Assembly (NCBI GenBank): GCA_009777825.1
Contig: WRLA01000007.1
Coordinates: 1-64,000 of the forward strand
DNA from: Bacteroidales bacterium
GTDB taxonomy: Bacteria; Bacteroidota; Bacteroidia; Bacteroidales; WRLA01
Direction: 5' to 3'
Length of the DNA: 64,000 nucleotides
Position 1 is the first letter of the stretch. The number at the start of each line of letters is the position of its first letter. Below are positions 11,261 to 60,259 of this stretch, piece by piece. A program made the position numbers and the translations under genes. A model generated the notes under the pieces. The model saw nothing but the letters and a program-made list of their open reading frames with translations. It was not told where the DNA came from and did no database searches.

Positions 11261-11371
11261 TGAGACGTGAGATGTGAGATGTGGGATGTGAGATGTGAGA
11301 TGTGAGATGTGAGATGTGAGATGTGAGATGTGAGATGTGGGATGTGAGACGTGAGATGTGAGATGTGAGAC
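11261..11371. repeat. tandem heptamer array (GTGAGAT-type)
   Basis: About 15 copies of a 7-bp unit, GTGAGAT, with scattered variants (GTGGGAT, GTGAGAC). The array lies 37 bp upstream of the first gene of the minus-strand operon. The same heptamer family recurs near 29669-29723 and 57371-57410, and related forms at 37902-37929 and 57080-57114. Confidence 0.9.
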
Positions 11372-20184: not shown

Positions 20185-20322
20185 GCCCTATTTTAGAATT
20201 TCAAAAAATCATTTATAAACCAAATGCAAAAGTACAAAATATATTCGATTTAGCACGCACTTTCGTGCTTATGTTCAACACGAAGGCACGAAGACAGAAA
20301 GACACGAAGATTTTTCCATATA

Positions 20323-20546
20323 CATTTCAAATTGTCGCAAGCGGCGCATGGCATGGCGGACGGCATGTAGCGACGTGAATCCAAAGGATTCAAATGTTTA
20401 TAGAAAAATGATATTCCGATTAACATACGACTCCGTCGGAGTCGAACGCAAATATGAATATCTTTATGCTATAAACATGTAACCTCTTCGAGGTCATTAC
20501 GCGAACATGTTGCAAAACCGCGAAATTCGTCATACAACCATCTGCG
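20323..20546. repeat. 224-bp hairpin repeat, copy 1 of tandem pair
   Basis: Contains CGACTCCG-T-CGGAGTCG (20428-20444), a perfect 8-bp-stem hairpin, and ACCTC-TTC-GAGGT (20482-20494). The 3' end is CATCTGCGT. It is repeated with a 241-bp period at 20564-20787. Confidence 0.9.
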
Positions 20547-20563
20547 TCATCTGCGTGCTTATG

Positions 20564-20787
20564 CATTTCAAATTGTCGCAAGCGGCGCATGGCATGGCGG
20601 GCGGCATGTAGCGACGTGAATCCAAAGGATTCAAATGTTTATAGAAAAATGATATTCCGATTAACATACGACTCCGCCGGAGTCGAACGCAAATATGAAT
20701 ATCTTTATGCTATAAACATGTAACCTCTTCGAGGTCATTACGCGAACATGTTGCAAAACCGCAAAATTTGTCATACACCCATCTGCG
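20564..20787. repeat. 224-bp hairpin repeat, copy 2 of tandem pair
   Basis: Nearly identical to copy 1. Its hairpin is CGACTCCG-C-CGGAGTCG (20669-20685): only the loop base differs and the stems are kept. The second hairpin ACCTC-TTC-GAGGT is also kept. Confidence 0.9.
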
Positions 20788-20833
20788 TATTTTGGCTGCG
20801 CTCAATAACACATCTGCGTGCTTAACACAGCAC

Positions 20834-29649: not shown

Positions 29650-29723
29650 CAAAGGTACACTTTTTTTTGAGATGTGAGAGTTTGAGATGTGAGATATGAG
29701 ATTTTGAGATGTGAGATGTGGGA
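29650..29723. promoter_or_regulatory. -7 element for the CTD protein followed by a heptamer array before porU
   Basis: CAAAGGTA at 29650-29657 is a minus-strand TACCTTTG. At 29669-29723 lie about six degenerate heptamers of the GTGAGAT family (GAGATGTGAG, GAGATATGAG), in the upstream region of porU (start 29782). No TAnnTTTG box for porU itself was found. Confidence 0.55.
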
Positions 29724-29781: not shown

Positions 29782-32700
29782 ATGGGAAAAAAAACACTTT
29801 TTTTTGTTGTTATTACGCTGGTTTTTCTATCGCTTCAGGCACAAAATATCCGTAAGCATGTTGCTTTGGAGTGGAAAATCCAACCATACGTTGAAGAAGG
29901 GAAGGAATATATCTACTTTTCAGATGCGACATATCAGACGGAGTTCGGATCTTTGCCGCTTTACAATCATCTCTTTTCGGAAGATGTGCCGGAGAAAACA
30001 GGTTCTGTTACCATCTCGAATGCCATTTTTATTCCGATGGCGTTGGAATATCTGCTGACGGAGGCAGAGAAGACGCTTATTCCCGATACGCTCTCTTACA
30101 CCGTTCAAAACATTCCGGAACGGCGCAGGAGCAATCTTTCCGTTACACTCCTCCCTTTTCGTAAAAACAGTGAAACGGGCAACATAGAACGCCTCTACTG
30201 TGCCGACATATCCGTTGATTTTAACGACACGCCTACTTCGCGGGGAGTCCCTCCGCCATTTGAATTTCCATCTCAATCGCCCTTTGCGGATGGCGACAGT
30301 TATAAGATACGCGTGGATAAAACCGGCGTCTTCAGAGTTACAGGCAAAGATTTGAAAAACATGGGCATGGAGATCGCCTCCGTGAACCCAAAAACCCTGA
30401 AAGTGCATGGCATGACGGGCGGCGTACTGCCCGATATGAACACCGAAATCCCCAATACCGGAATCCAGGAGTTAGCCATCTATGTTTACGGAGACGATAA
30501 TAGCGCTTTCGGCGAATCGGATTACATCCTCTTTTATGGCGAATCAGCACATTCGTGGACTTACGATTTGAGTAACAAGCGTTTCGAACATACCTTTAAT
30601 TATTATGACGACTACAACTACTACTTCATCACCGTCGGCGGCGCACAGGGAAAACGCATCCAAACAGTGAACAACAACAACTTGACCGAAAACGCAACCA
30701 CCGGACAAGGCGACTACTACATGTTCCACGAACAAGACTTGGTCAACGTGCTGAAAGCCGGAAGAAACTGGGTGGGCGAGAATTTCAGTTCATACAACAG
30801 AGAACGCACTTTCAGCGTCAGCGTTCCCAATGCCATCACTGCAGAGCCGTTTCTGTTGCGTTCAGGGCTTTTGACCTCATATCAGAAATTGTCCGCTACA
30901 TACTCTTACACGGTCAATGGGACGGAAGTATTAAAAACAACTGTTACGGGAAGTAGCAACAGACCGATTCGTTATAGTGTTGACAACGCCTCTTTCACTG
31001 CCCCTGCAGGAAATTTCTCATTAAAAATATCCTTTACCGGCGGAAACGGTGTAGAGGGATGGTTAGACTTTTTTGAGATACAGGCGCGGCGCAACCTTAC
31101 CTACAACGGCGGACAGATGAGTTTCCGAGACGCGAAAACAGCCGCTCCCGACAAAATTACCAAATTCAACCTGCAAAACACATCATCGCAAACAACGGTA
31201 TGGGATGTAACTGATTTTTATAACGTTACCAAAATGGCTATCGAAAATAACGGACAGTCGTTCAAAGCCAAGACCGATGTACTGCGGGAGTTTATCGCCT
31301 TTGACAACAGTTATGAAATACCCACCTTCATCGGAAAAATAGCGAAACAAAACCTGCAAGGTGCACGCAACATACAAAGCGTTATCGTGGCGCACCCCGA
31401 CTTTTTCGACGAAGCAAAGAAAATCGAAGAGGAACATCGCAACAACCTCGGACTGAAGACGATGTTGGTCTCTACCGAACAGGTCTATAACGAGTTTTCA
31501 TCCGGACGACAAGACGTCGGCGCCATACGCGACTTTATGCGCATGCTACATCTCACCGCCGCCGAAACCTCTCCGCCGGAATACTTGCTGCTGATTGGCG
31601 ACGCCTCGTGGGATTATAAAAACACCATCAAACAATCCACCTTTGTCCCTGCATGGAGTAGCAGGTTGTTAGTTGCTGGAACAGATAACATAGATTATGA
31701 ATACGTTCTTGTTGGCGACGACTTTTTTACATTATTGGACGACAACGAAGGAAGTAATTTGAGACAATGTAGCGGATTGCCCGACATCGCCGTAGGGCGA
31801 TTTCCCGTAAACAACGCCACCGAAATGCAGAATGCTGTAAAAAAACGACTGCATTACACCAGCGGCGCTCCCGAAACAATGGGGGCATGGCGCAACGTCA
31901 TCACACTCCTTGCCGATGACCCTGATGATAGAGACAATAATCCTGAATATATGCGGGACGCTTATGCGGAAAGTTGCGAAGAACATGAGAGCGTCATCAT
32001 GTCATTATTTTCCGAAGCCGTGATGGAGAAAATATATGCCGATTCCTACAAGCGCGTGGTCTCGCCGGGCGGCGTGCGCTATCCCGACGTCAATAAAGCC
32101 TTAACGACCCGCGTCAATCAGGGAACACTCATTTTAAACTATGTAGGACACGGAAGCAAAACGCGCTGGTCGCACGAAGCACTCTTGGATGTTCCGGATG
32201 TGAGCCATTGGAAAAACCCCAATAGCCTACCGTTTGTCATCACCGAAACGTGTACCAATTCTCCTTTCGATGATTACGAAGTAACCACGCACGGAGAACA
32301 CATGTTTCTGCGACCCGACGGAGGCGCTATCGGCGTACTTGGCTCTACCAGAGAAACAAATAATGGTCCTAATAACAAATTAGCGAATGCACTGTATCAA
32401 GCCATGTTGCCGTCGGAAAGCAATAACCATAAGGCAAAAAGCATCGGAAAGGCAACCATGGCAGCAAAACAGAAAAATTCGATGGACAATAACGCTCAAA
32501 AATATATTTTACTCGGCGACCCTGCCCTGACGTTGTCTTTTCCAAAATACACTATCGCATGTACGGAAATCAACGGGAAGAATGCCACTACAACCATTGA
32601 TACCATCAGCGCACTGACCATTGCCTCCTTCAAAGGAGAAATCCGCAACTTAGACGGTAGCCTCAAAAGCGACTTCAACGGCATGGTCTATCCAACCGTG

Positions 32701-33633
32701 TTCGATAAGGAAATAACCACAAAAACGCTGGGACAAATCTCTCCTTATACAATCTTTCCCTACAAAATATGGAAAAGCATCATCTTCAAAGGCGCCGCTA
32801 AAGTCGAAAATGGAAAGTTCTCCTTCGACTTCTTCGTGCCGAAAGATATTGACTATGACTATGACTTCTCCAAAGTTTCCTTCTACGCCTCCGACGAAAC
32901 CAAGAAAACAGACGCCAACGGCGTATTTTCACGCTTCGTCGTCGGCGGACTCAACCCCAACGCCCCCATTGACACCATCCCGCCCACGATACAACTCTTT
33001 ATGAATGACATCCATTTCGTCTCCGGCGGATATACCAACGAAAACCCCGTTCTGTTAGCCCTGCTCTACGACGAAAGCGGCATCAACGCCACCGGCTCCA
33101 GCATCGGACATAACATCACCGCCATCTTAGACGGCGACGTCAATAACGAAATGAACCTCAACAACTTCTACCAAACCGACGCCAACGACTACAAAAGAGG
33201 TAGCGCCGCATTCCCACTTTACGACCTGTCGGAAGGCGAACATACCATCACTGTACGGGCATGGGATTCGTACAACAATTCGATAAAAAGCAGCATCACT
33301 TTCGTGGTCGTCAACTCCAACAGGTTTGTCATGCGCAATTTATACAATTACCCCAATCCGTTCCAAACATCCACCAACTTTGTATTTGAACACAACGCCT
33401 CCGACGAGACGTTAGAGGTCAACATCCGTATTTTCGACCTGACAGGACGCTTGGTACGCGAAATTCAACAATCCATCTACGCCACCGGCTACCGCACGCC
33501 CCCCATCCAATGGAACGGCGATACCGGCGGAGGCTCCCCCATAGCCGGCGGTTACTACATCTACCAACTCACGGTAAAAACCTCGACAGGCGCTACGGAG
33601 AGGAAGTCAGGGAAACTCGTTATTGCGCGATAG
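29782..33633 (+). CDS. porU: type IX secretion sortase PorU (C25-type peptidase)
   Basis: A 1283-residue surface protease that removes T9SS C-terminal signals and attaches cargo to the cell surface. A signal peptide ends near LQAQ. A gingipain-type C25 domain covers about residues 530-920: LLLIGDASWDYKN, DIAVGRFPVNNATE, catalytic His790 in NYVGHGSKTRW and Cys824 in TETCTNSPFDD. C-terminal Ig-like and sorting-type domains follow (LYNYPNPFQTST, FDLTGRLVREI, SGKLVIAR). Other PorU proteins are roughly 1100-1300 residues. Usually porV is adjacent; here two M6 protease genes follow instead. Confidence 0.9.
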   Translation: MGKKTLFFVVITLVFLSLQAQNIRKHVALEWKIQPYVEEGKEYIYFSDATYQTEFGSLPLYNHLFSEDVPEKTGSVTISNAIFIPMALEYLLTEAEKTLIPDTLSYTVQNIPERRRSNLSVTLLPFRKNSETGNIERLYCADISVDFNDTPTSRGVPPPFEFPSQSPFADGDSYKIRVDKTGVFRVTGKDLKNMGMEIASVNPKTLKVHGMTGGVLPDMNTEIPNTGIQELAIYVYGDDNSAFGESDYILFYGESAHSWTYDLSNKRFEHTFNYYDDYNYYFITVGGAQGKRIQTVNNNNLTENATTGQGDYYMFHEQDLVNVLKAGRNWVGENFSSYNRERTFSVSVPNAITAEPFLLRSGLLTSYQKLSATYSYTVNGTEVLKTTVTGSSNRPIRYSVDNASFTAPAGNFSLKISFTGGNGVEGWLDFFEIQARRNLTYNGGQMSFRDAKTAAPDKITKFNLQNTSSQTTVWDVTDFYNVTKMAIENNGQSFKAKTDVLREFIAFDNSYEIPTFIGKIAKQNLQGARNIQSVIVAHPDFFDEAKKIEEEHRNNLGLKTMLVSTEQVYNEFSSGRQDVGAIRDFMRMLHLTAAETSPPEYLLLIGDASWDYKNTIKQSTFVPAWSSRLLVAGTDNIDYEYVLVGDDFFTLLDDNEGSNLRQCSGLPDIAVGRFPVNNATEMQNAVKKRLHYTSGAPETMGAWRNVITLLADDPDDRDNNPEYMRDAYAESCEEHESVIMSLFSEAVMEKIYADSYKRVVSPGGVRYPDVNKALTTRVNQGTLILNYVGHGSKTRWSHEALLDVPDVSHWKNPNSLPFVITETCTNSPFDDYEVTTHGEHMFLRPDGGAIGVLGSTRETNNGPNNKLANALYQAMLPSESNNHKAKSIGKATMAAKQKNSMDNNAQKYILLGDPALTLSFPKYTIACTEINGKNATTTIDTISALTIASFKGEIRNLDGSLKSDFNGMVYPTVFDKEITTKTLGQISPYTIFPYKIWKSIIFKGAAKVENGKFSFDFFVPKDIDYDYDFSKVSFYASDETKKTDANGVFSRFVVGGLNPNAPIDTIPPTIQLFMNDIHFVSGGYTNENPVLLALLYDESGINATGSSIGHNITAILDGDVNNEMNLNNFYQTDANDYKRGSAAFPLYDLSEGEHTITVRAWDSYNNSIKSSITFVVVNSNRFVMRNLYNYPNPFQTSTNFVFEHNASDETLEVNIRIFDLTGRLVREIQQSIYATGYRTPPIQWNGDTGGGSPIAGGYYIYQLTVKTSTGATERKSGKLVIAR

Positions 33634-33717: not shown

Positions 33718-35910
33718 ATGAAAAAACTTTTTCTCTTCATCGTATTTGCTTGGGCGTATGGATTCTCTTCTTACGCCTATTACGAAAAAAATTATCCCAT
33801 CACGGTAACGCAGCCCGATGGCATGGAAGTACACTGTTTCGCCACCGGCGACGAATTTTACCACTGGGTACACGACGAAGACGGATTTACCCTCATCCGC
33901 GACCTGCAAACAGGCATTGTGGTCTATGCCAAATTGGAAAACGACGAGTTGGTCTCGACCGGCTATCGCGCCGGCAGCGTTGACCCTGCGACAATAGGAT
34001 TGACGCCATGGCTGAACATCTCTGTCGAAAAACGGCAACAACTACGCGCCGACTTTTTCAAAAACGCCCCCGAAAAACCGGTTGTAGAGACGTACGGCCG
34101 TGCGTCTCCACAACCCGACCAACCCCCAAGAGGCGGATGGAACAACGGAACGATCAACAACTTGGTGATTTACATCCGCTTTTCCGACGAGAACGAGTTT
34201 CCGCCGGAAAAAGCCGCTAAGTACGACGGTTTTTTCAACAAAGACGAACCAGGACAGACCTCCATGTATGCCTACTATAAAGCGGCTTCGCTCGACCGGA
34301 CGTTTATTCCATCTACTTTTTACCCTATAAACACGGAAAACGCCATTACCTCATACCAGGACATCTACCCACGCGGTTACTACCAACCCTACAACGCCAC
34401 TTCTAACCCTATCGGCTACACCGACGACCTGGAATCATGGTTCAGAGGACATCAAGCGTTTAGACGCGCCATTGAGTTTGTAGCCGACGAAGTACCGGAA
34501 GACTTAGACCTCGATTTTAACAACGACGGGCTGGTGGACAACATCTGCTTTATCGTGAGCGGCGCTGCCGGCGCATGGTCGTCGTTGCTGTGGCCCCACC
34601 GCTTCTTCCTAATGGCTGCCGAAGAAATATACATCAACGGCGTAAGAGCGTGGGATTACAATCTGCTCATCGAAAAACATTTAGACGGAGCAGGAACCAG
34701 CGTTTTAGCACACGAAATGTCGCATACATTAGGCTCTCCCGATCTGTATAGATACGAATATAACGGCACTCCTGTCGGCATCTGGGACTTGATGTCGGAC
34801 GACCAAAACCCGCCCCAATCCATGACGGCGTATATGAAATGGAAATATGGCGGTTGGATTGACGACATCCCCACAATCACCGAAAGCGGAAGTTATACCT
34901 TACATAATGTATGGACAGAGAGCAATAATGCCTACAAAATCGCTTCGCCCAACTCGTCCACAGAGTTTTTTGTGATAGAATATCGCGATAACAGCGTTTA
35001 CTGGGATTCGAAATTGCCGGGCAGCGGCTTGATTATATATCGTATCAATACCAAGTGCGATGGAAACGCCGACGGTCCGCCCGACGAAATCTATATCTAC
35101 CGTCAGGGCGGAAAGAGCAACATGGCTAACGACGGAAACCTCAGCGGCGCCTATTTCTCGCTAGAGTCAGGACGCACGGCGTTTAACAATGTTTCCAATC
35201 CCTCGTGCTTTTTGTCCGACGGCTCGCCCGGCGGCATCGCCATTAACATCACCGAACCACGAGGCGAAACCATGACCTTTAACGTTGACTTCTCGATGGT
35301 AAATACGGAAATCCAAGTTACGCCCGAAAAACTGACCTTCGCCAATATTCCCCTCGGAACAACCTCCGAACCGCAAACCTTTACCGTTATCGGAACGAAC
35401 TTGAAATATGACCTCTTATATGCAAAAACCGGCGACAACAGTAATCTCTTCGCCATCGAAGAGATTGACTGGAACCCCGCCACCGGCGGAACACTCTCCA
35501 TACGATATACGCCGACATCCACCCAAATAAACACAGCAAGACTCGTCTTCAAGTCTATCGGCGCAACCTCGCAAGAAGTATCATTAATAGCACAGGGAGC
35601 CACCGTAGCCATCAACGAACAGGACGTTGCGGATGGCATTACGATATATCCCAATCCGACAACGGGATTGTTAACGATATGCGATATGCGCAATTCCCCT
35701 CCTCTGGAGGGGGCAAGGGGAGGCACGATATGCGACGTTGTAATATTCGATGTTTTGGGTCGTACCGTAGGGGCGGCCCTGGCGGTCGCCCCTGACGGGA
35801 CGCATCAATCACAAATCGAAATGGATATTTCGTATTTGCCCACCGGCATCTATTTTGTGAAAATCCAAACCGAAACCGACGTGGTTGTGCGGAAAGTAAT
35901 TAAACAATAA
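33718..35910 (+). CDS. M6-family metalloprotease with T9SS C-terminal domain (paralogue 1)
   Basis: A 730-residue secreted protease. Signal peptide 1-20. The N-terminal domain (VHCFATGDEFYHWVHDEDGF) is followed by the M6 catalytic domain with zinc site HEMSHTLGSPD (His332, Glu333, His336). Then a beta-rich domain, a segment near 540-640 (LTFANIPLGTTSEPQTF) and a type A CTD (ITIYPNPTTGLLTI, IFDVLGR, LPTGIYFVKIQTETDVVVRK). Two repeat-derived inserts interrupt the CTD. It is followed 28 bp later by a close paralogue, so a tandem duplication. Likely a PorU substrate. Confidence 0.88.
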   Translation: MKKLFLFIVFAWAYGFSSYAYYEKNYPITVTQPDGMEVHCFATGDEFYHWVHDEDGFTLIRDLQTGIVVYAKLENDELVSTGYRAGSVDPATIGLTPWLNISVEKRQQLRADFFKNAPEKPVVETYGRASPQPDQPPRGGWNNGTINNLVIYIRFSDENEFPPEKAAKYDGFFNKDEPGQTSMYAYYKAASLDRTFIPSTFYPINTENAITSYQDIYPRGYYQPYNATSNPIGYTDDLESWFRGHQAFRRAIEFVADEVPEDLDLDFNNDGLVDNICFIVSGAAGAWSSLLWPHRFFLMAAEEIYINGVRAWDYNLLIEKHLDGAGTSVLAHEMSHTLGSPDLYRYEYNGTPVGIWDLMSDDQNPPQSMTAYMKWKYGGWIDDIPTITESGSYTLHNVWTESNNAYKIASPNSSTEFFVIEYRDNSVYWDSKLPGSGLIIYRINTKCDGNADGPPDEIYIYRQGGKSNMANDGNLSGAYFSLESGRTAFNNVSNPSCFLSDGSPGGIAINITEPRGETMTFNVDFSMVNTEIQVTPEKLTFANIPLGTTSEPQTFTVIGTNLKYDLLYAKTGDNSNLFAIEEIDWNPATGGTLSIRYTPTSTQINTARLVFKSIGATSQEVSLIAQGATVAINEQDVADGITIYPNPTTGLLTICDMRNSPPLEGARGGTICDVVIFDVLGRTVGAALAVAPDGTHQSQIEMDISYLPTGIYFVKIQTETDVVVRKVIKQ
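35675..35793. repeat. in-frame heptamers and two hairpin elements inside the CTD of M6 paralogue 1
   Basis: Two CGATATG heptamers (35675-35688) are followed by the hairpin CCCCTCC-TCT-GGAGGGG (about 35696-35712) with GGGGAGG beyond it, then one more CGATATG. At 35769-35793 lies a second hairpin, AGGGGCG...CGCCCCT. The reading frame stays open through all of it. Confidence 0.85.
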
Positions 35911-35938
35911 AAATAAATAAATAAAAAGTTTTAGAGTT

Positions 35939-38107
35939 ATGACAACAACATTTACAAAAAATGCAAAACAAATCCTTGCAGGATTGTTTTTGGTATGCCT
36001 TTGCCTTTGCGCAAATGCAAGTTATGTAGAAAAATTCCCCATCACGGTAACACAGCCCGATGATGGAACGGTAGTATCCTGTTTCGCCACCGGCGACGAA
36101 TACTACCACTGGGTACACGACGAAAACGGATTTACCCTCATCCGCGACCCGCAAACAGGCATCGTGGTCTATGCCACATTGGAAAATGACGAATTAGTCT
36201 CCACCGGCTATCGCGCCGGAAGCGTTGACCCCGCCGCAACAGGATTGCAGCCATGGACGATTATTTCGCCGGAAAAACGAATGCAGATTCGGGAAGACTT
36301 TTTGAAAAAAACACCGCCAAAACCGGTAAACCCCGGTTACCAACCCCCAAGAGGCGGATGGAACAACGGAACGATACAAAACCTCGTGATCTACATCCGT
36401 TTTTCCGACGAAACCGAATTTCCACCCGAAAAAGCCGCCATCTACAACGACATGCACAACAAAGAAGAAGAAGGATACCCTTCCATGTATTCGTATTTCA
36501 AAGCCGTTTCCAATGAAAAAACATTCATCCCCACCACTTTCTACCCCGTAACTTCCGGTGACCTCATCATCTCATATCAGGATATCTACCCCCGCTCCTA
36601 CTTCCAACCCTACTCCACATACAACCCCGACGGATACCAAGGCGGCGACAACGGAGACGAACGCACCGAGAGAGAACACCAACTGCTCGCACGCGCCGTC
36701 GAAGCCGTAAAACATGAAATCCCAACAGACTTAGACCTCGACTTCAACAACGACGGCTTCGTTGACAACATCTGTTTTATTGTAAGAGGCGCTCCGGGCG
36801 ATTGGGCAGTATTGCTGTGGCCCCACCGCTGGGCGTTATACTCAGAATACGTAACCATCAACGGAAAACAGGTTTGGGATTTTAATATGCAGATAGAAAC
36901 GCATTTGGATGGCTCCAGCGCCAGCGTATTGTCGCACGAAATGTCCCATACGCTAAGTTCACCCGACCTGTATAGATACCAATACAACGGCACGCCCGTC
37001 GGACAGTGGGACTTGATGGCAAGCAACACCTCCCCGCCGCAATCCATGACCGCATGGATGAAATACCAATACGGCGGCTGGATTGACAACATCCCCACCA
37101 TCACCGAAACCGGAACCTACACCCTCAACAACGTATGGTCGGAAACCAACTATGCCTACCGAATAGCCTCGCCCAACTCATCTACAGAGTTCTTTGTGGT
37201 GGAATATCGCGATAAAAACGTGTACTGGGACTCGAACTTGCCAGGCAGCGGACTGCTTATATACCGTATCAATACCAAGGAAAACGGAAATGCCCAAGGT
37301 CCGCCGGACGAACTCTATATCTACCGTAAAGGCGGAACCAGCAATATGGCTGATGACGGCGATATTAAAAACGCTTTCTTCTCGGAACAGTCGGGACGTA
37401 CGGCGTTTAACAACTCGTCCGATCCACCGTGTTTTTTATCCAATAACCAACCCGGAAGCATTTACATCTCCAACATCAGCGCCTCAGGCGGAGAAACCAT
37501 GTCGTTCTACGTTGACTTCTCCATGGCAAATACGGAAATCCACGTTACGCCCAACGAACTGACCTTTGCCAATATCCCCGTTGGAACAACCTCCGAACCG
37601 CAAACCATCACCGTCTCCGGCACAGATCTGACACATCCCATCCTCTACGAAAAAAGCGGCACCAACCACGAACTCTTCACCATCGAAGAAACCGACTGGA
37701 ACCCCGAAACCGGCGGAACACTCTCTGTTACATTTATGTCGGAAGCAGCCAAGATATACACCTCCAAAATCGTCTTCAGTTCCTTAGGCGCAGTGTCGAA
37801 AACAGTAACGTTAAAAGCACAAGGAACCACCGTAGCCATCGGCGAACAGGATGCGGCGGATGGCATTGCGATATATCCCAATCCGACGACAGGATTGTTG
37901 ACGATATGCGATATGCGATATGCGATATGCGACGTTGCAATATTCGATGTTTTGGGACGTATCGTAGGGGCGACCCTTGCGGTCGCCTCTGACGGGACGC
38001 ACCAATCGCAAATCGAAATGGATATTTCGTATTTGCCCACCGGCATCTATTTTGTGAAAATCCAAACCGAAAATAACGTGGCAACGAAAAAGGTAATTAA
38101 AAAATAA
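35939..38107 (+). CDS. M6-family metalloprotease with T9SS C-terminal domain (paralogue 2)
   Basis: 722 residues, closely similar to the upstream gene over its whole length. Signal peptide ends near CANAS. The zinc site is HEMSHTLSSPD (His333, Glu334, His337), with Ser replacing Gly at the position after Leu. The same downstream domains and a type A CTD follow (IAIYPNPTTGLLTI, IFDVLGRIVGATLA, LPTGIYFVKIQTENNVATKK). Its CTD carries four heptamers where paralogue 1 has a longer insert. Secreted by T9SS; substrates unknown. Confidence 0.88.
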   Translation: MTTTFTKNAKQILAGLFLVCLCLCANASYVEKFPITVTQPDDGTVVSCFATGDEYYHWVHDENGFTLIRDPQTGIVVYATLENDELVSTGYRAGSVDPAATGLQPWTIISPEKRMQIREDFLKKTPPKPVNPGYQPPRGGWNNGTIQNLVIYIRFSDETEFPPEKAAIYNDMHNKEEEGYPSMYSYFKAVSNEKTFIPTTFYPVTSGDLIISYQDIYPRSYFQPYSTYNPDGYQGGDNGDERTEREHQLLARAVEAVKHEIPTDLDLDFNNDGFVDNICFIVRGAPGDWAVLLWPHRWALYSEYVTINGKQVWDFNMQIETHLDGSSASVLSHEMSHTLSSPDLYRYQYNGTPVGQWDLMASNTSPPQSMTAWMKYQYGGWIDNIPTITETGTYTLNNVWSETNYAYRIASPNSSTEFFVVEYRDKNVYWDSNLPGSGLLIYRINTKENGNAQGPPDELYIYRKGGTSNMADDGDIKNAFFSEQSGRTAFNNSSDPPCFLSNNQPGSIYISNISASGGETMSFYVDFSMANTEIHVTPNELTFANIPVGTTSEPQTITVSGTDLTHPILYEKSGTNHELFTIEETDWNPETGGTLSVTFMSEAAKIYTSKIVFSSLGAVSKTVTLKAQGTTVAIGEQDAADGIAIYPNPTTGLLTICDMRYAICDVAIFDVLGRIVGATLAVASDGTHQSQIEMDISYLPTGIYFVKIQTENNVATKKVIKK
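37902..37990. repeat. in-frame (CGATATG)4 and hairpin element inside the CTD of M6 paralogue 2
   Basis: Four perfect CGATATG units (37902-37929) encode MRYAIC-type sequence. At 37966-37990 lies AGGGGCGACC-CTTGC-GGTCGCCTCT, a 10-bp stem with one G-T pair. Both are in frame. Confidence 0.9.
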
Positions 38108-41633: not shown

Positions 41634-43556
41634 TTATTTTTTCGTTATCTTCCTCGTTATAACACCTTCGCTGGTTTTAATATTGATGAAGTAAACCGCG
41701 GTGGGCAAATGGAAGATGTCGAATGTGGTTTGGCGGGTCTCAAAGACCATTTTGCCGCTCATGTCGAATAATTGAATCTTTTCGACGTCGGCTCCCACAT
41801 TCTGAATAACGACTTTTCCGTCAGTCGGGTTGGGATAGATGTAGGCGGTTGTTGACATCTCTTCTATCCTTTCCGGCGTTCCCGTCAGTGTTATTTCATA
41901 TTCTAAGGTGTCTTTGGCAAAAGTCGGAAAATAGGCATTAGTCATCCTGCAACGCAAATATTTTCCGGTAAGATCTTGTTGGATAGGTTTAAAGAGTCCA
42001 TCTTCTCCTGATAAGTCAACCCACAACTCCTTATCTTTTTTACCCTCTTTCCAGAATATGCGCCAGTGAAATTTAGTAATAGAATTGACAATCATGTATT
42101 CTGCAGTCAGGTCTATGTTTTCTTTATAATCTACCACACCGCCGAAACACATTTTTTGAGGACTATAAATGAATGTTTGCATAATAGTATCGGTGTTTAA
42201 CACTAATTGAGAAAACAGCATACGGTTCTTTGAGCAATTCAAATATTCCAAGGGACAATTTTCAATAGAACTCCGCAACTCTTCCAATAAATTATCGGAG
42301 CAATTCAACTCTGTAAGTTCTATATTTTGTTTAAGATCTATGGTCTCAATATTATTTGTGGCAAAATTCAACGTTTGCAGTTTGGTATTTTTTGTAACAT
42401 CCAATCTCGTAAGAGAATTTTCCGAACAATCAAAGTCAATCAAATTCACGACGTTACCTATTTCAAGGGTCAGAATTTGGTTCGTACCACAATAGAGCGT
42501 CGTTAATTTGGTGTTTTTCGAAACATCCAATCCTGATAGCCAGTTATGAGAGCAATCGAGTTCAATCAAATCAACGGCTTTATTTACGTTAATCGTGGAA
42601 ATTTGGTTATTATTACAGTAGAATGTCGTCAATTTGGCGTGTTTTGAAACGTCTAACTCCATCAGCAAATTGTACGAACAGTCCAGTTCAACCAAATCAA
42701 CGGCTTCGCTGACATCAAGCGCACCAATTTTATTGTTGCTGCAATTTAAGAATACGAGATTCGTATTCCCACTGATGTCTAATGCCGACAATTTATTGCC
42801 GCTGCAGTTCAACGATGTTAAAAGAGGATTGTCGCTGATATTCAAGTTGACAAGGCTATGAATCTCGGAAGCCTTAAAATCTGTCAGGTGATTGTTCTCA
42901 CAGCGAACGTTCGACAGATTCGGATTGCTGTTTACGTCGAGCAGCGTTATTTGATTGTCATTGCAATAGAGCATCGTTAATCCGGGACATTGGCTTACGT
43001 CCAAATCTGCTATGGCGTTTTTTGAACAGTCCAAACTCACCAATTTCACATTAGTGGTTAAATCTAAAGTTGTTACATTAGTCTTCTGACAGTACAACGT
43101 CAACAAAGCCCCTGCACCGGTTACATTGATCGATTGCAACGGGTTGTTATCGCAAGCGAGGTGATTTAAGTAGGCATTTGCGCTTACGTCAATGACAGTA
43201 AGTTTGTTGTCGTAGCAATGGAGCGTCTCCAAGTGTGTCCATTTTGCGCCGTTCAACTGTCCGGCAACACCCTTGTCGCCACATTCGATTTTGGCTATAC
43301 GATAATAATTATCCTCGTATAATTTCCATGTAAATCCCGTTGCTTTGGGAATCCAGGCGTCGCTGCCATTCCAATTTAGCGTGTCGCTAAGTTGCAATCC
43401 GAGACACTCGGCATTGATTTTTCCTGTTACACCCGACGGCTGACGAAGAAAAATGCGCATTCCTTCCTTGTCGTCCGGATGGTAGGTAAAACTTTGCCCC
43501 ACTGCGTAAAAGCCCGTGAGTATCAACACAATAACAAACATAAAAAGTTTCTTCAT
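41634..43556 (-). CDS. leucine-rich-repeat protein with T9SS C-terminal domain
   Basis: A 640-residue secreted protein with a signal peptide at 1-20. Residues 100-450 form about 16 leucine-rich repeats with a 21-residue period of the type LDVSKNTKLTTLYCGTNQI, with a recurring Cys in each strand. A linker domain (about 470-550) follows, and a type A CTD ends the protein (AYIYPNPTDGKVVIQNV, LFDMSGKMVFE, ITRKITKK). The architecture suits surface adhesion or protein binding; the ligand is unknown. A -7 box lies at 43599-43606. Confidence 0.88.
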   Translation of the reverse strand: MKKLFMFVIVLILTGFYAVGQSFTYHPDDKEGMRIFLRQPSGVTGKINAECLGLQLSDTLNWNGSDAWIPKATGFTWKLYEDNYYRIAKIECGDKGVAGQLNGAKWTHLETLHCYDNKLTVIDVSANAYLNHLACDNNPLQSINVTGAGALLTLYCQKTNVTTLDLTTNVKLVSLDCSKNAIADLDVSQCPGLTMLYCNDNQITLLDVNSNPNLSNVRCENNHLTDFKASEIHSLVNLNISDNPLLTSLNCSGNKLSALDISGNTNLVFLNCSNNKIGALDVSEAVDLVELDCSYNLLMELDVSKHAKLTTFYCNNNQISTINVNKAVDLIELDCSHNWLSGLDVSKNTKLTTLYCGTNQILTLEIGNVVNLIDFDCSENSLTRLDVTKNTKLQTLNFATNNIETIDLKQNIELTELNCSDNLLEELRSSIENCPLEYLNCSKNRMLFSQLVLNTDTIMQTFIYSPQKMCFGGVVDYKENIDLTAEYMIVNSITKFHWRIFWKEGKKDKELWVDLSGEDGLFKPIQQDLTGKYLRCRMTNAYFPTFAKDTLEYEITLTGTPERIEEMSTTAYIYPNPTDGKVVIQNVGADVEKIQLFDMSGKMVFETRQTTFDIFHLPTAVYFINIKTSEGVITRKITKK

Positions 43557-55370: not shown

Positions 55371-55428
55371 AAAAAAATATTCAGCACAGAGGCACAGAGT
55401 TCACAGAGTTCACAGAGTTGCACAGAGA
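55371..55428. repeat. CAGAG dispersed repeat
   Basis: Repeated CACAGAG and TTCACAGAG phrases, related to those at 11395-11470 and 57119-57232. Located just after the stop of the subtilase gene. Confidence 0.7.
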
Positions 55429-55437
55429 AATTCGTGG

Positions 55438-57240
55438 CTAATTCTTCACGAATTTAGCGCATCCGACCATCCCCTCGTCATCGTAAAAGTGGATGACATA
55501 CATTCCGGCTCTAAGTTCCTGTGTAGCAATCGTATAGTGATATTTTTCGAGTAATTGTTCAGCGACAAGTCGTCCGGAGAAGTCATAGAGCAGCGCTTTT
55601 TCCAAATGATATTGCGATTTTACGGTGAGCAATCCGGAAGCCGGATTGGGATAGACGAGGATATTGTTGCACTTGGAATGTCCCGGCACGGGCAACGATT
55701 TCAACGTCTTATTAAAGTCGGGTATTCCGTAACCCATTTGATATGAAGGATTTGCGTAAAGATTTGCCGAAGATTCGATGAGTGTTTTCAGTTTTTCCGG
55801 CGGAGTAAAGGGCGAGGCTTGCAAGAGGCAGGCAACCATTCCGCACACGATAGGGGAGGAGTAGGAAGTTCCGCTGCCGGAGATTATCGCTCCTTGGGCG
55901 TTGATGATGGTAGCGTCGGCGCCTCGCGCCATGACGTTGGGCTTCTGTTCGCCTGCGGCGTTGGGACCGATGGAACTGAAGGATGCGTATTGTCCGTTTT
56001 GTTGCACGGCGCCCACGGTGAGCGCTTCGGCGACGTCGGCGGGCGTTCCTATCCAGCGCCATGCAACGTTGTCGCCTTCGTTGCCGGCAGAGGTGCAGAC
56101 GAAGATGCCGCGCTCGACGGCTTTCCGTGCGCCGATGGCGGCGATGGTGGTACGTCCGTCCATGTCGGAATAGGTGTGGCTCATGGTCGGGTCGTCGTAT
56201 TTGGTATATACTAAGGAGGAGTTGATGAGGTCGGCGCCGATGCTGTCGGCGGTCTCGGCGCCGATGACCCACGTGTATTCTTCGATAAGGTATTCCGAAA
56301 GTGTGTTTTCGGTACGGAACAGACAGTAACTCGCTTTGGGTGCCGTGCCAACCATCCGGTTTGGAAGATATGCCGCCATGCAGGAGAGTACGGAAGTTCC
56401 GTGTTCCGTTATGCCGGAGCGGTAAATATCGCCGCCCGGCTCGATAAAATCTTTCGCCATCAACAGCCGTCCACTTTCGTACAGGTGGGCGAAGGCGTCG
56501 ATGGTGTTCACGTTACAGAACCCGCCATCCAAAACAGCGATGAGAACGCCCTCGCCATCGTATCCTTTGTTATGGAGTGCGATGCCGTTAAGTTGTTCAA
56601 TCTGGTCGGAGGCGTTGCCGTAGAATTGGAACGCTGATGACACAGATGATACTGATTCACACTGATTTTCATATTGTTGATAGGTATATTTACATCTGTG
56701 AAAATCCGTGTCATCTGTGTTATCCGTGTTCCCCTCTCTTCCTCTTGGGTGGGCTACCAACACCACTCTCTCCACGCACCCCAACGTTTTGATGTCGTCT
56801 ATGGCAGCGTCGTCATCGCAATCTACGAGGACGCAGTTCAGCCATTTGCTTGGGAATAAGATGGTGGCACCTTTGTCTGCAACTTGTTGTATATAAGCCG
56901 GATTGACGGGCAGGTCATCGTCGGAAAGTAGGATTTCAAACTTATACCTGCGCTCGAGCGCCCGTTCCGATAGAAACTGCGAGGGAGCGTCTAACTGATA
57001 CGGCGTTCTGTCTTTGTCTTTGAAGTGGACGGCGTATTTTTGGGCAATCGCCGCTTGCGACAGGAGGAGGAGAAGAATTGCGATGTGCGATATGCGATGT
57101 GCGATGTGCGATGGGAAGCCTCTGTGTAACTCTGTGCACTCAGTGTCTCTGTGCTGCTTTTCCCCCTTCGGGGGAACAAAAAGGGGGTTTTTCAACACAG
57201 AGACACAGGGGACACAGAGGTTCACAGAGATTTTTATCAT
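55438..57240 (-). CDS. subtilisin-family (S8) protease with T9SS C-terminal domain
   Basis: About 600 residues from ATG 57240; a GTG at 57258 would add six. The signal peptide core (ILLLLLSQAAIAQ) comes only after about 55 residues of repeat-derived sequence. A propeptide-like region (KYAVHFKDKDRTPYQL) follows. Catalytic residues, numbered from the GTG: Asp244 (AVLDGGF), His286 (EHGTSVLSC), Ser465 (SGTSYSSP). Residues 173-212 before the catalytic domain are an in-frame palindromic repeat. The C-terminal CTD has ILVYPNPASGLLTV, LYDFSGRLVAE and FVKN. It lies 22-40 bp after the double subtilase gene. Confidence 0.85.
   Translation of the reverse strand: MIKISVNLCVPCVSVLKNPLFVPPKGEKQHRDTECTELHRGFPSHIAHRISHIAILLLLLSQAAIAQKYAVHFKDKDRTPYQLDAPSQFLSERALERRYKFEILLSDDDLPVNPAYIQQVADKGATILFPSKWLNCVLVDCDDDAAIDDIKTLGCVERVVLVAHPRGREGNTDNTDDTDFHRCKYTYQQYENQCESVSSVSSAFQFYGNASDQIEQLNGIALHNKGYDGEGVLIAVLDGGFCNVNTIDAFAHLYESGRLLMAKDFIEPGGDIYRSGITEHGTSVLSCMAAYLPNRMVGTAPKASYCLFRTENTLSEYLIEEYTWVIGAETADSIGADLINSSLVYTKYDDPTMSHTYSDMDGRTTIAAIGARKAVERGIFVCTSAGNEGDNVAWRWIGTPADVAEALTVGAVQQNGQYASFSSIGPNAAGEQKPNVMARGADATIINAQGAIISGSGTSYSSPIVCGMVACLLQASPFTPPEKLKTLIESSANLYANPSYQMGYGIPDFNKTLKSLPVPGHSKCNNILVYPNPASGLLTVKSQYHLEKALLYDFSGRLVAEQLLEKYHYTIATQELRAGMYVIHFYDDEGMVGCAKFVKN
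56630..56737. repeat. in-frame palindromic element inside the subtilase gene
   Basis: A left arm (GATGACACAGATGATACTGA) and a right arm (GTGTCATCTGTGTTATCCG) are inverted around a spacer of about 45 bp. Read on the minus strand it encodes GNTDNTDDTDFHR and later CESVSSVSSAF. The frame stays open. It lies between the propeptide and catalytic domains. Confidence 0.82.
57080..57232. repeat. heptamer and CAGAG repeats at the subtilase N-terminus
   Basis: A GCGATGT/GCGATAT heptamer array (57080-57114) is followed by a CAGAG-type inverted repeat (57119-57232) whose centre carries CCCCCTTCGGGGG. Together they supply the first 50 or so codons before the signal-peptide core and most of the gap to the upstream gene. 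Confidence 0.75.
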
Positions 57241-57280: not shown

Positions 57281-60259
57281 TTAATTCTTTATCACTTTCC
57301 GTGTTACCACATTGTTTTCAGTTTGGATGCGGAGGAAATAGACGCCGGCGGGTAAATGCGAAATGTCAATGGAGATGGGATGTGAGATATGCGATGTGAG
57401 ACGTGAGACATTTCTACCAAAGACATCAAATATTTCGACACTCTCAACTCTCAACTCTCCACTCTCCACTCTCAACTCCCCGCTCGTCGGATTCGGATAT
57501 ATTATAATAGAAGACCCATCAGCAATCTCCGATATTGAGACCAATCCGGCGGCTTTGGCAAAGTCGGGGATGCCGTAGCCCATTTTCGGGGTTGGGTTGT
57601 TGTAGTAGTTGGCTGATTTTTGGATCATGTCGCGCAGTTCCATGGGGTTTGTGTCGGGGAACATTTGCAAGAGGCAGGCGACCATTCCGGCGGTGATGGG
57701 CGACGAGAGCGAGGTGCCGCTGGCGGTATAAAGCCCTTCATTGTCAATGATGATGGGGCAATTTTGTCCGCGTGCCATGGTATTGGGTTTTTGGTCGCCG
57801 GCGGCGTTAGGACCGATGGAACTGAAATAGACATATTGTCCTTGATTGTTGACGGCGCCCACCGTCAGGATGTCGGAAGCGTCGGCGGGACTGCCGATCC
57901 ATTGCCATGCCGGTTCGTCGCCGGTATTTCCTGCCGAGACGCAGACGAAGATGCCGCAGTCAACGGCTTTTTGTGCTGCGATGGAGGAGACGATGGTTTT
58001 CCCGTCAATGTCGCTGTAGGTATGGTTCATGGAGGTGTCGTCGAAGTCATGATATCCCAAGGAGGAGTTGATGACGTCGGCGCCGATGCTGTCGGCGGCT
58101 TCGGCGCCAAAGACCCAGTTATATTCCTCTATGGGATATTCCGTTTCGGCGTCTTCGGTGCGGAAAAGGGCGAAACTTGCGTTTGGGGCGGTTCCGATCA
58201 TCGTCCCCGACCAGTATGAGGCGATACACGACATGACTAAGGTGCCGTGTGCGTTCAGCGTTGCGTCATAGACGTCTCCGCCCGGATTGGCGAAGTCTTT
58301 GGTCATGATAAGTCGTTCATTCTCATAGACATGGCTGAAAGCGTTGATTTGGTTGGCGATGGGGAATCCGGCGTCCAAAATCGCTATGAGTATATCTTCG
58401 CCCTGATAGCCGGCTTCGTGCAGCGGTATTCCGTTGAGTTGACGGATTTGTTCGTCGGCGTAGCCGTAAATAGAGGCTTGAGGTTGTTGTTCAATGAGTT
58501 CCGGCGCTGTGGTCAGGAGCGGTTTTACACTTTTGGAAGTGGGCGCGTCGCCGGGTTTTACAAAGATGACCGTATCAACGCAAGCGAGGTTTTCGATATT
58601 TTCTAACATCACCGAATCGGGAATCCGTGCCAAAGCGCAATTAATCCATCTGCTTGAGAATAAGAGTTCTGCGCCTTCGGTTTTTACCTGTTCGATATAA
58701 TCGGGATTGACGGGGAGGTCGTCGTCGGTGAGCGAAATGTTGAATTTTGCTCTGCGGTCGAGCGATTTTTGCGACAAGAAGGCTAACGGTTCGTCAATAG
58801 AGTAGGGGGAGTCGTTTTTATCCGTAAAATGGATGGCGTAGAAATGATTGGTGATGACGGGCGGTTCCGGCGGCTCCGGCGGGTCGGGCAGCAGGCTCAA
58901 AGCCATGTCGAAGTCGGGGATGCCGTAGCCCATCTTTATTGTCGGTGTATTATAATTGTTGCCGGTTTGTTCGATAAAAGATTTTAACTCAACCGGTTTC
59001 ACGTGCGGCTTTGCCTGTATCAGACAGGCGACCATTCCGCAGGTGATGGGAGAGGCGAAAGAAGTCCCGCTGAGGTACGAAATAGTGTTGCCATCCGCAT
59101 ACGTGGCGCAATCGTAACCTTGCGCCATGGTATTGGGTTTCTGTTCGCCGGCGGCGTTAGGTCCTATGGAACTGAAATAGACGTAATCGCCATCTTCGTC
59201 AACAGCGCCTACCGTGAGGACGTTGTTGACGTCGGCGGGCGTGCCGATCCATTTCCACGATGGGTCGCCGCCGCTGTTTCCGGCGCTCACGCACACAAAG
59301 ACTCCGCGCTCAATGGCTTTATTGGCTCCGATGGCGGCTGCGGTGGTTTGTCCGTCCATATCGGAATAGTCCCAATTCATCGTTGGGTCGTCGTAGTCGT
59401 GATAACTTAAAGAGGTGTTGATGATGTCGGCGCCGATGCTGTCGGCGGCTTCGGCGGCGGCGACCCAGTTGTACTCTTCTATCAGATATTCCGAATCAAC
59501 GTCTTCGGTGCGGAAGAGGCAGCAGGTGGCTTCGGGAGCGGTGCCGATCATCTGATTAGGGACATACGCCGCCATACACGAAAGGACGGCGGTACCATGA
59601 TAGTGTGTGTTGCTGTAAACATTTCCTCCCGGATTAACAAAGTCGCGGGTCGCCAAGATGCGCTCTTCTCCAAACAGCGGGTTAAAGGCATTGATAGTGT
59701 TGACTTTATCGAAACCCGAATCTAAAACCGCTATCACCACGCCTTCGCCTTTATAGCCTTTGTCGTGGACGGCGATGCCGTTGAGTTGCGCAATTTGGTT
59801 GTGGGCTTGTCCGTACTCCGACCTCGAAGAGGAGATTTTGGAAGGAGTGCGACGAGCAACTCCGTATTTGTTCTTAGACGTCTTTATCTTTTTTCCGCCC
59901 TCCGGCTTCACGAAAACGACATGGTCAACGCAATCCAGCGCCGTTATTTGCGGTAGGATTGTGTTGGCGGCGTTGACTACGGCGCAGTTGAGCCATTTGC
60001 TTGTGTATAAGACCGTTGCGCCGACGTTTTGCAGTTCTGCTACGTAAGCGGGATTGACCGGCAGGTCGTCGTCGGTGAGTTCTACCTCAAACTTCTCTCT
60101 GCGTTCCAGCGCCCGCTGAGATAAAAACGCTTCCGGATGGGAAAGAGTGTAAGGCGTCCCGACTTTGTCGGTAAAATAAACGGCGTATTTCTGGGCAAAC
60201 GATACAAACGGTAAGCCGAAAAATGCGATGAACAGAAGTAAAGTGAAATTTTTCCTCAT
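57281..60259 (-). CDS. double-domain subtilisin-like protease with T9SS C-terminal domain
   Basis: 992 residues from ATG 60259 (MRKNFTLLLFIAFFGLPF); a longer frame from 60367 starts upstream of the -7 box and is rejected. It contains two complete S8 modules, each with its own propeptide-like region (QKYAVYFTDK; FYAIHFTDKNDSPYSI). Triads: Asp180, His221, Ser400 and Asp629, His671, Ser850. A Pro-rich linker (PDPPEPPEPP) joins them. The CTD (IIIYPNPTSGELRVES, IFDVFGRN, LPAGVYFLRIQTENN) carries repeat arrays. Both modules look active. It resembles the next gene downstream. Confidence 0.88.
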   Translation of the reverse strand: MRKNFTLLLFIAFFGLPFVSFAQKYAVYFTDKVGTPYTLSHPEAFLSQRALERREKFEVELTDDDLPVNPAYVAELQNVGATVLYTSKWLNCAVVNAANTILPQITALDCVDHVVFVKPEGGKKIKTSKNKYGVARRTPSKISSSRSEYGQAHNQIAQLNGIAVHDKGYKGEGVVIAVLDSGFDKVNTINAFNPLFGEERILATRDFVNPGGNVYSNTHYHGTAVLSCMAAYVPNQMIGTAPEATCCLFRTEDVDSEYLIEEYNWVAAAEAADSIGADIINTSLSYHDYDDPTMNWDYSDMDGQTTAAAIGANKAIERGVFVCVSAGNSGGDPSWKWIGTPADVNNVLTVGAVDEDGDYVYFSSIGPNAAGEQKPNTMAQGYDCATYADGNTISYLSGTSFASPITCGMVACLIQAKPHVKPVELKSFIEQTGNNYNTPTIKMGYGIPDFDMALSLLPDPPEPPEPPVITNHFYAIHFTDKNDSPYSIDEPLAFLSQKSLDRRAKFNISLTDDDLPVNPDYIEQVKTEGAELLFSSRWINCALARIPDSVMLENIENLACVDTVIFVKPGDAPTSKSVKPLLTTAPELIEQQPQASIYGYADEQIRQLNGIPLHEAGYQGEDILIAILDAGFPIANQINAFSHVYENERLIMTKDFANPGGDVYDATLNAHGTLVMSCIASYWSGTMIGTAPNASFALFRTEDAETEYPIEEYNWVFGAEAADSIGADVINSSLGYHDFDDTSMNHTYSDIDGKTIVSSIAAQKAVDCGIFVCVSAGNTGDEPAWQWIGSPADASDILTVGAVNNQGQYVYFSSIGPNAAGDQKPNTMARGQNCPIIIDNEGLYTASGTSLSSPITAGMVACLLQMFPDTNPMELRDMIQKSANYYNNPTPKMGYGIPDFAKAAGLVSISEIADGSSIIIYPNPTSGELRVESGELRVESVEIFDVFGRNVSRLTSHISHPISIDISHLPAGVYFLRIQTENNVVTRKVIKN
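57371..57480. repeat. in-frame heptamer and GAGAGTTGA arrays inside the CTD of the double subtilase
   Basis: 57371-57410 is a GTGAGAT-type heptamer array read as RLTSHISHPIS. 57439-57480 is a 13-bp type array of ACTCTC/AACTCTCC units read as SGELRVESGELRVES. Both lie in the sorting domain and keep the frame. Confidence 0.85.

Follow-up and report, generated by a model that had tools for sequence, protein, structure and literature searches.

In-frame heptamer repeats and hairpin elements in the T9SS sorting domains of a Bacteroidales genome

In an uncultured Bacteroidales-type MAG (2.48-Mb, 90 contigs, 69% complete), dozens of secreted proteins carry short repeats and hairpin elements in frame in their sorting tails, and essential cell-wall enzymes contain them as well. 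Two paralogous metalloproteases, P1 and P2, encoded on a stretch of 64,000 nucleotides that we call the window, are one instance of this genome-wide pattern. We consider it somewhat more likely than not that mobile or slippage-born repeats persist where extra peptide is harmless, with the C-terminal sorting domain (CTD) as their main safe haven.

Repeats in the sorting domains of P1 and P2

P1 and P2 end in T9SS type A sorting domains, an assignment based on TIGR04183/PF18962 scores above the cut-off together with the CTD fold. Within the CTD we distinguish site 1, between PNPTxG and xFDxxGR; site 2, between GR and DISxLP; and site 0, the upstream linker. The features of the locus, in window coordinates, are:

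29782-33633, + strand: porU, the T9SS sortase expected to cut such CTDs (NF033707, 1136.7 bits), directly upstream of P1
33718-35910, + strand: P1, M6-family metalloprotease with T9SS type A sorting domain, 730 aa (ORF; Pfam PF05547, PF18962)
35644-35907, + strand: P1 CTD, 264 bp (TIGR04183, E 4e-12)
35675-35681 and 35682-35688, + strand: P1 site 1, two CGATATG units
35690-35725, + strand: P1 site 1, C-tract hairpin insert, core CCCCTCCTCTGGAGGGG at 35696-35712; together with flanking bases it occupies the place of one further heptamer unit of P2
35726-35732, + strand: P1 site 1, third CGATATG unit, 3' of the hairpin
35767-35793, + strand: P1 site 2, GTAG-tagged hairpin (REP) GTAGGGGCGGCCCTGGCGGTCGCCCCT
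35939-38107, + strand: P2, M6-family metalloprotease with T9SS type A sorting domain, 722 aa (ORF; Pfam; NCBIfam TIGR03296, TIGR04183)
37871-38104, + strand: P2 CTD, 234 bp (TIGR04183, E 5.6e-15)
37902-37932, + strand: P2 site 1, (CGATATG)4 plus CGA, coding for ICDMRYAICD, a predicted strand-turn-strand
37964-37990, + strand: P2 site 2, GTAG-tagged hairpin (REP) GTAGGGGCGACCCTTGCGGTCGCCTCT
41637-41840, - strand: CTD without repeats at sites 1 and 2, an internal comparison of equal site-1 length
57284-57502, - strand: further CTD with a GAGAGTK heptamer array at site 1 and CTCACAT-type repeats at site 2

The arrangement described in the earlier note, with four CGATATG units in P2 and, at the equivalent CTD site of P1, a C-tract hairpin preceded by two such units and followed by a third, can be read directly from the sequence, as can the related hairpins further on in both paralogues. 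Its statement that all of these elements keep the frame also holds, both ORFs being open. By alignment, site 1 of the P1 CTD exceeds that of P2 by 30 bp, a 37-bp C-tract hairpin segment lying opposite one further 7-bp unit of P2; gain of 37 bp or loss of 7 bp alone breaks the frame, and the two together restore it. In shuffled sequence the C-tract hairpin pattern gave hits in 0 of 100 shuffles and the GGGGCG hairpin pattern in 2 of 100, and the count of CGATATG dimers (8 matches) was never reached.

Two further claims hold in part. The C-tract hairpin, which gives P1 an extra 10 aa, and the site-2 hairpins do add peptide, but the P2 heptamer array does not: lengthening of the CTD by this array was ruled out by alignment, in which the repeat-free CTD of the window and Flavobacterium CTDs match its site-1 length. 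Similarly, separate events at one point of the two paralogues are borne out for the C-tract insertion but not for the heptamer arrays, which are common to other CTDs and may have been inherited or converted rather than gained independently.

Other repeats occur elsewhere in the window. TGAGATG-type arrays lie at 29666-29720, directly 5' of porU (29782), and at 11261-11370, where ~15.7 units cannot be read through on that strand because the unit holds TGA. A TGCGATG array (57079-57113) directly precedes the signal-peptide-like stretch of the next gene, with similar arrays at C15:36246 and C15:38697 elsewhere in the genome, and a 241-bp tandem duplication, 97% alike, spans 20319-20788.

Distribution across the genome and its relatives

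The earlier note had staked its reading on the elements occurring elsewhere in the genome, and they do. TIGR04183 matches 130 times, and among the 58 CTDs of xFDxxG[RK] type elements are present at site 1 in 42, at site 2 in 32 and at either of these equivalent sites in 45; translation of the CTD matches shows the site-1 and site-2 peptides to be largely repeat-derived. A REP also lies immediately 5' of PNP in 21 of the 58. Heptamer units in CTDs include CGATATG, GAGAGTK, GAGTTAC, CAGAAAG, AATCGSA, CTCACAT, CAACTTT and TGTAACG, and CTD hairpins comprise GTAGAGACG..CGTCTCTAC, GTAGGGGCG.., CGTC dimers and C-tracts.

Genome-wide we counted 72 CGATATG-dimer matches, 29 GTAG-REPs, ~33 CGTC-REP loci and 19 C-tract sites. 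CTD modules make up 1.65% of the genome, and on that base they are over-represented as locations of CGATATG arrays (18 of 40, 27x), GTAG elements (15 of 29, 31x), CGTC elements (9 of 33, 17x) and C-tract elements (4 of 19, 13x); binomial P values for this enrichment overstate the number of events because copies are partly related by descent. Period 7 stands out among tandem repeats: a fixed 464-kb sample holds 28 arrays of this period and 0 to 4 each of periods 4-6 and 8-11, and 8 of 29 period-7 arrays lie inside a CTD, CTDs being 1.3% of that sample.

The hairpins fall into several families. Twenty-nine copies of GTAGAGACG N10 CGTCTCTAC, whose inner stems vary in sequence and in most cases are self-complementary, are short palindromes with GTAG at one end and are thus GTAG-REPs, as are the GTAGGGGCG hairpins of P1 and P2. 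The sequence CGTC-ATTGCGGG-CTTGA-CCCGCAAT, found at 42 places and several times as inverted pairs ~41 bp apart, qualifies as a CGTC-REP, an assignment that covers other CTDs and genes and not the P1 and P2 hairpins. A search for a RAYT dedicated to the GTAG hairpins did not find one: this 69% complete genome has two Y1 transposases, and the flanking sequence that was read contains no GTAGAGACG hairpins; given the incompleteness, a RAYT may be missing from the assembly. At L260:1380-2180 lies an IS200-like transposase gene with AGGGCAACGCCCT-type palindromes on its flanks, perhaps a REPtron of another family. In 12 of 88 cases a REP has a heptamer array no more than 30 bp away, compared with 2.4% of random positions, which suggests that REPs and heptamer arrays nest at tolerant spots.

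Outside CTDs, in-frame inserts interrupt three enzymes. That of MurE (~54 residues) combines a CGATATG-type array, a CACAGAG-type repeat and a C-tract hairpin; that of MurG (~45-50 residues) a CACAGAG-type repeat and CGTC-type palindromes; and that of UvrA (~23 residues) contains a CGTC-REP. In comparisons with PDB structures each appears as a single alignment gap with homology on both sides. MurE and MurG are uninterrupted at the insert points in two genomes of the same genus (G001, G002), so the insertions either postdate the split or were lost there. By inspection, a C39-type ABC exporter, a CoaX-like protein and an esterase are further candidates. A 9-mer repeat, CACAGAGTT, occurs at window positions 55385-55427, and a related repeat is found in the MurE and MurG inserts. 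A MurD-like ORF (L187:8485-9282, 265 aa) has several heptamer inserts and apparently lacks its N-terminal half, by pseudogene formation, deletion or misassembly.

No period-7 arrays were present in the CTDs sampled from G001 and G002. Site-1 heptamers do occur in other Bacteroidales families, as TTCAAAG-type (G047, G156, G349), AATTGAG-type (G218) and AATTAAA-type (G362) units, which suggests recurrence across families in what is a small sample drawn with a query that favoured such CTDs. Several near-alike, CTD-like short ORFs of ~200 bp (VYSNPTNGQLRVESGAWRIEK...) are scattered over G001 contigs C16, C111, C25, C89, C22 and C96.

Coding constraint and predicted structure

The GAGAGTK arrays carry a probable trace of selection on reading frame. 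Within CTDs, K is G at all 10 positions where T gives a TGA stop in frame, while 21 of the 29 other positions have T; outside CTDs it is T in 36 of 40. This purging of in-frame GAGAGTT stops, together with the finding of just one clear out-of-frame CTD array, in a broken gene, is in keeping with the expectation of the earlier note that the elements are not equally common out of frame within genes, but survivorship accounts for part of the bias, since it is intact ORFs that searches find. The exceptional array (G000:C68:5272-5457) has 2 heptamer units rather than 4.

Site 1 is 18 aa long in nearly all heptamer CTDs, whichever the unit, and by alignment this length equals that of the repeat-free window CTD and is ungapped, save one residue, against Flavobacterium CTDs. 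With lengths equal with and without repeats, the arrays therefore fill the normal beta-hairpin rather than extend it. In the AlphaFold2 model of P2 the heptamer peptide is predicted to form two strands (26-31 and 36-42) joined by a short turn, with a mean pLDDT of 86, and the best Foldseek matches of this model are the T9SS CTDs 8glk and 8gl6; in that of P1 the C-tract peptide is modelled as a low-confidence loop linking those two strands. A heptamer repeat gives one 7-residue cycle, identical in all three frames, and this cycle, being frame-independent and fitting the hairpin, would make heptamers a recurrent raw material for it.

In Ohno's oligomer-repeat model of coding sequences, a base oligomer of a length not divisible by 3 reportedly encodes a single periodic peptide whichever frame is read. 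PMC3654881 cites this model. We put forward, tentatively and as less probable than its converse, that different 7-bp repeats independently became the CTD beta-hairpin in several Bacteroidales lineages, a present-day origin of coding sequence of the kind Ohno described. His model concerned ancient genes, whereas the sampled CTDs of G001 and G002, both of the same genus, lack the arrays found here.

Origin and persistence of the repeats

The presence of the elements, their enrichment and frame, the purging of stops, the matching site-1 lengths and the empty same-genus MurE and MurG sites are all direct observations. The explanation we favour adds a process to them. Two kinds of repeat would spread in the genome, hairpins (GTAG-REPs, CGTC-REPs and C-tract) presumably by mobility and period-7 microsatellite arrays presumably by slippage, while selection would act as a filter, removing insertions that break the frame or sit where the protein is intolerant. 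New sequence could be accommodated at three places of the CTD: the tip of its hairpin (site 1), a loop (site 2) and the linker that precedes it (site 0). In studied T9SS cargo the sortase PorU removes the CTD after export, and this cleavage is our reason for regarding the CTD as a haven for repeats, PorU probably acting likewise in this organism. At site 1 the heptamer arrays would have become the beta-hairpin itself, the 7-residue cycle fitting strand-turn-strand and units that read as stop having been mutated. Shuffling by gene conversion probably contributes too.

This safe-haven reading must be tempered on several counts. CTD element counts are not counts of independent insertions, because CTDs share ancestry: core identity is 0.707 within a site-1 class (S1) compared with 0.657, and there is an association between the S1 and S2 classes (p 0.02), both of which count against independent insertion. 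Array density in CTDs appears to be above that of intergenic DNA, exceeding what tolerance alone predicts, and a transposase flanked by the hairpins was not found among the two Y1 transposases of this 69% complete genome.

We regard as unlikely an alternative in which a few CTD modules gained repeats once and spread mainly by duplication and gene conversion, recombination between the repeats having multiplied and reassorted them on unrelated passenger proteins. Cores of the same class are more alike, the 20 S1-S2 class combinations are as expected from shuffling, and P1 and P2 share identical codons at 0.86 of identical residues in the CTD compared with 0.69 in the body. However, cores average only 67% identity, and only 71% within a class; a C-tract insertion into a heptamer array, as in P1, was found in no other CTD; and MurE, MurG and UvrA, which are not CTDs, hold like element types in frame.

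Phase variation is a far less probable account. Gain or loss of one 7-bp unit, 7 not being a multiple of 3, would shift the frame, remove the sorting signal and so toggle secretion or surface anchoring; perfect arrays such as that of P2 exist, and the CTD at C68:5272 is out of frame with 2 units instead of 4. That array belongs to a gene already broken, however, many arrays are imperfect, and phase variation was set aside as the main explanation on the near-constant 18 aa of site 1 in array CTDs. Least probable by our estimate is that the loaded genes are pseudogenes or products of contigs misjoined at repeats: the fragmented and incomplete assembly, contigs that stop at a repeat (C73) and the apparently truncated MurD ORF are in keeping with it, but a single open frame is kept at dozens of loci, in-frame stops are purged and homology continues on both flanks of the MurE, MurG and UvrA inserts.

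Returning to safe-haven persistence, the known systems it recalls each differ from the present one. Rickettsia palindromic elements (RPEs) are hairpins that have entered many unrelated genes without breaking the frame, and the peptide they add is compatible with function (review, PMC10969869). The comparison with RPEs drawn in the earlier note is apt as a description of behaviour, in-frame hairpin insertion into unrelated protein-coding genes being found here in CTDs, MurE, MurG and UvrA, with empty same-genus sites for MurE and MurG. RPEs are ~150 bp long, whereas the hairpins here are ~27-70 bp, belong to several families, are mixed with heptamer arrays and are concentrated in one domain type; the P1 and P2 elements are not assigned to any RPE family, the comparison being one of CGTC tag and structure with the published description.

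Di Nocera 2013 (PMC3733652) identifies the R. conorii elements RPE-4 and RPE-6 as CGTC REPs and describes intragenic REPs, uvrA being among the genes concerned. CGTC-REPs have a CGTC or TGTC tag, an 8-9 bp stem starting AT, a loop of 4-5 nt and head-to-head dimers; Bacteroidetes are listed for CGTC and not GTAG repeats, and copies are mostly extragenic (PMC3733652). Here GTAGAGACG..CGTCTCTAC and GTAGGGGCG.. bear the GTAG tag and CGTCATTGCGGG.. bears the CGTC tag, in head-to-head dimers, but CTD modules hold 15 of the 29 GTAG elements. Heptanucleotide repeats are over-represented in Beggiatoaceae, Cyanobacteria and Xanthomonas (PMC4679880, PMC4692102), likewise as period-7 tandem arrays with many copies per genome; there a single unit dominates and the repeats lie mostly between genes, whereas this genome has many different units, a good number of which are coding and match the demands of a protein fold. 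We found no report of heptamers, palindromic elements or repeat concentration in T9SS sorting domains in literature that was covered in part and included few subscription journals.

Since the repeats settle in frame in genes, repetitive DNA turns into protein sequence, as with the Rickettsia elements. If our reading is right, this one genome would provide dozens of tests of that process, including one site filled by various repeats, unfilled CTDs, purging of stops and essential-enzyme inserts absent from same-genus genomes. Peptides such as ICDMRYA and ESGELRV in sorting domains would then have to be recognised as repeat-derived, which calls for caution. The in-frame phenomenon known from Rickettsia would also reach into the Bacteroidales, where repeats would probably find refuge in a secretion signal that is cleaved off.
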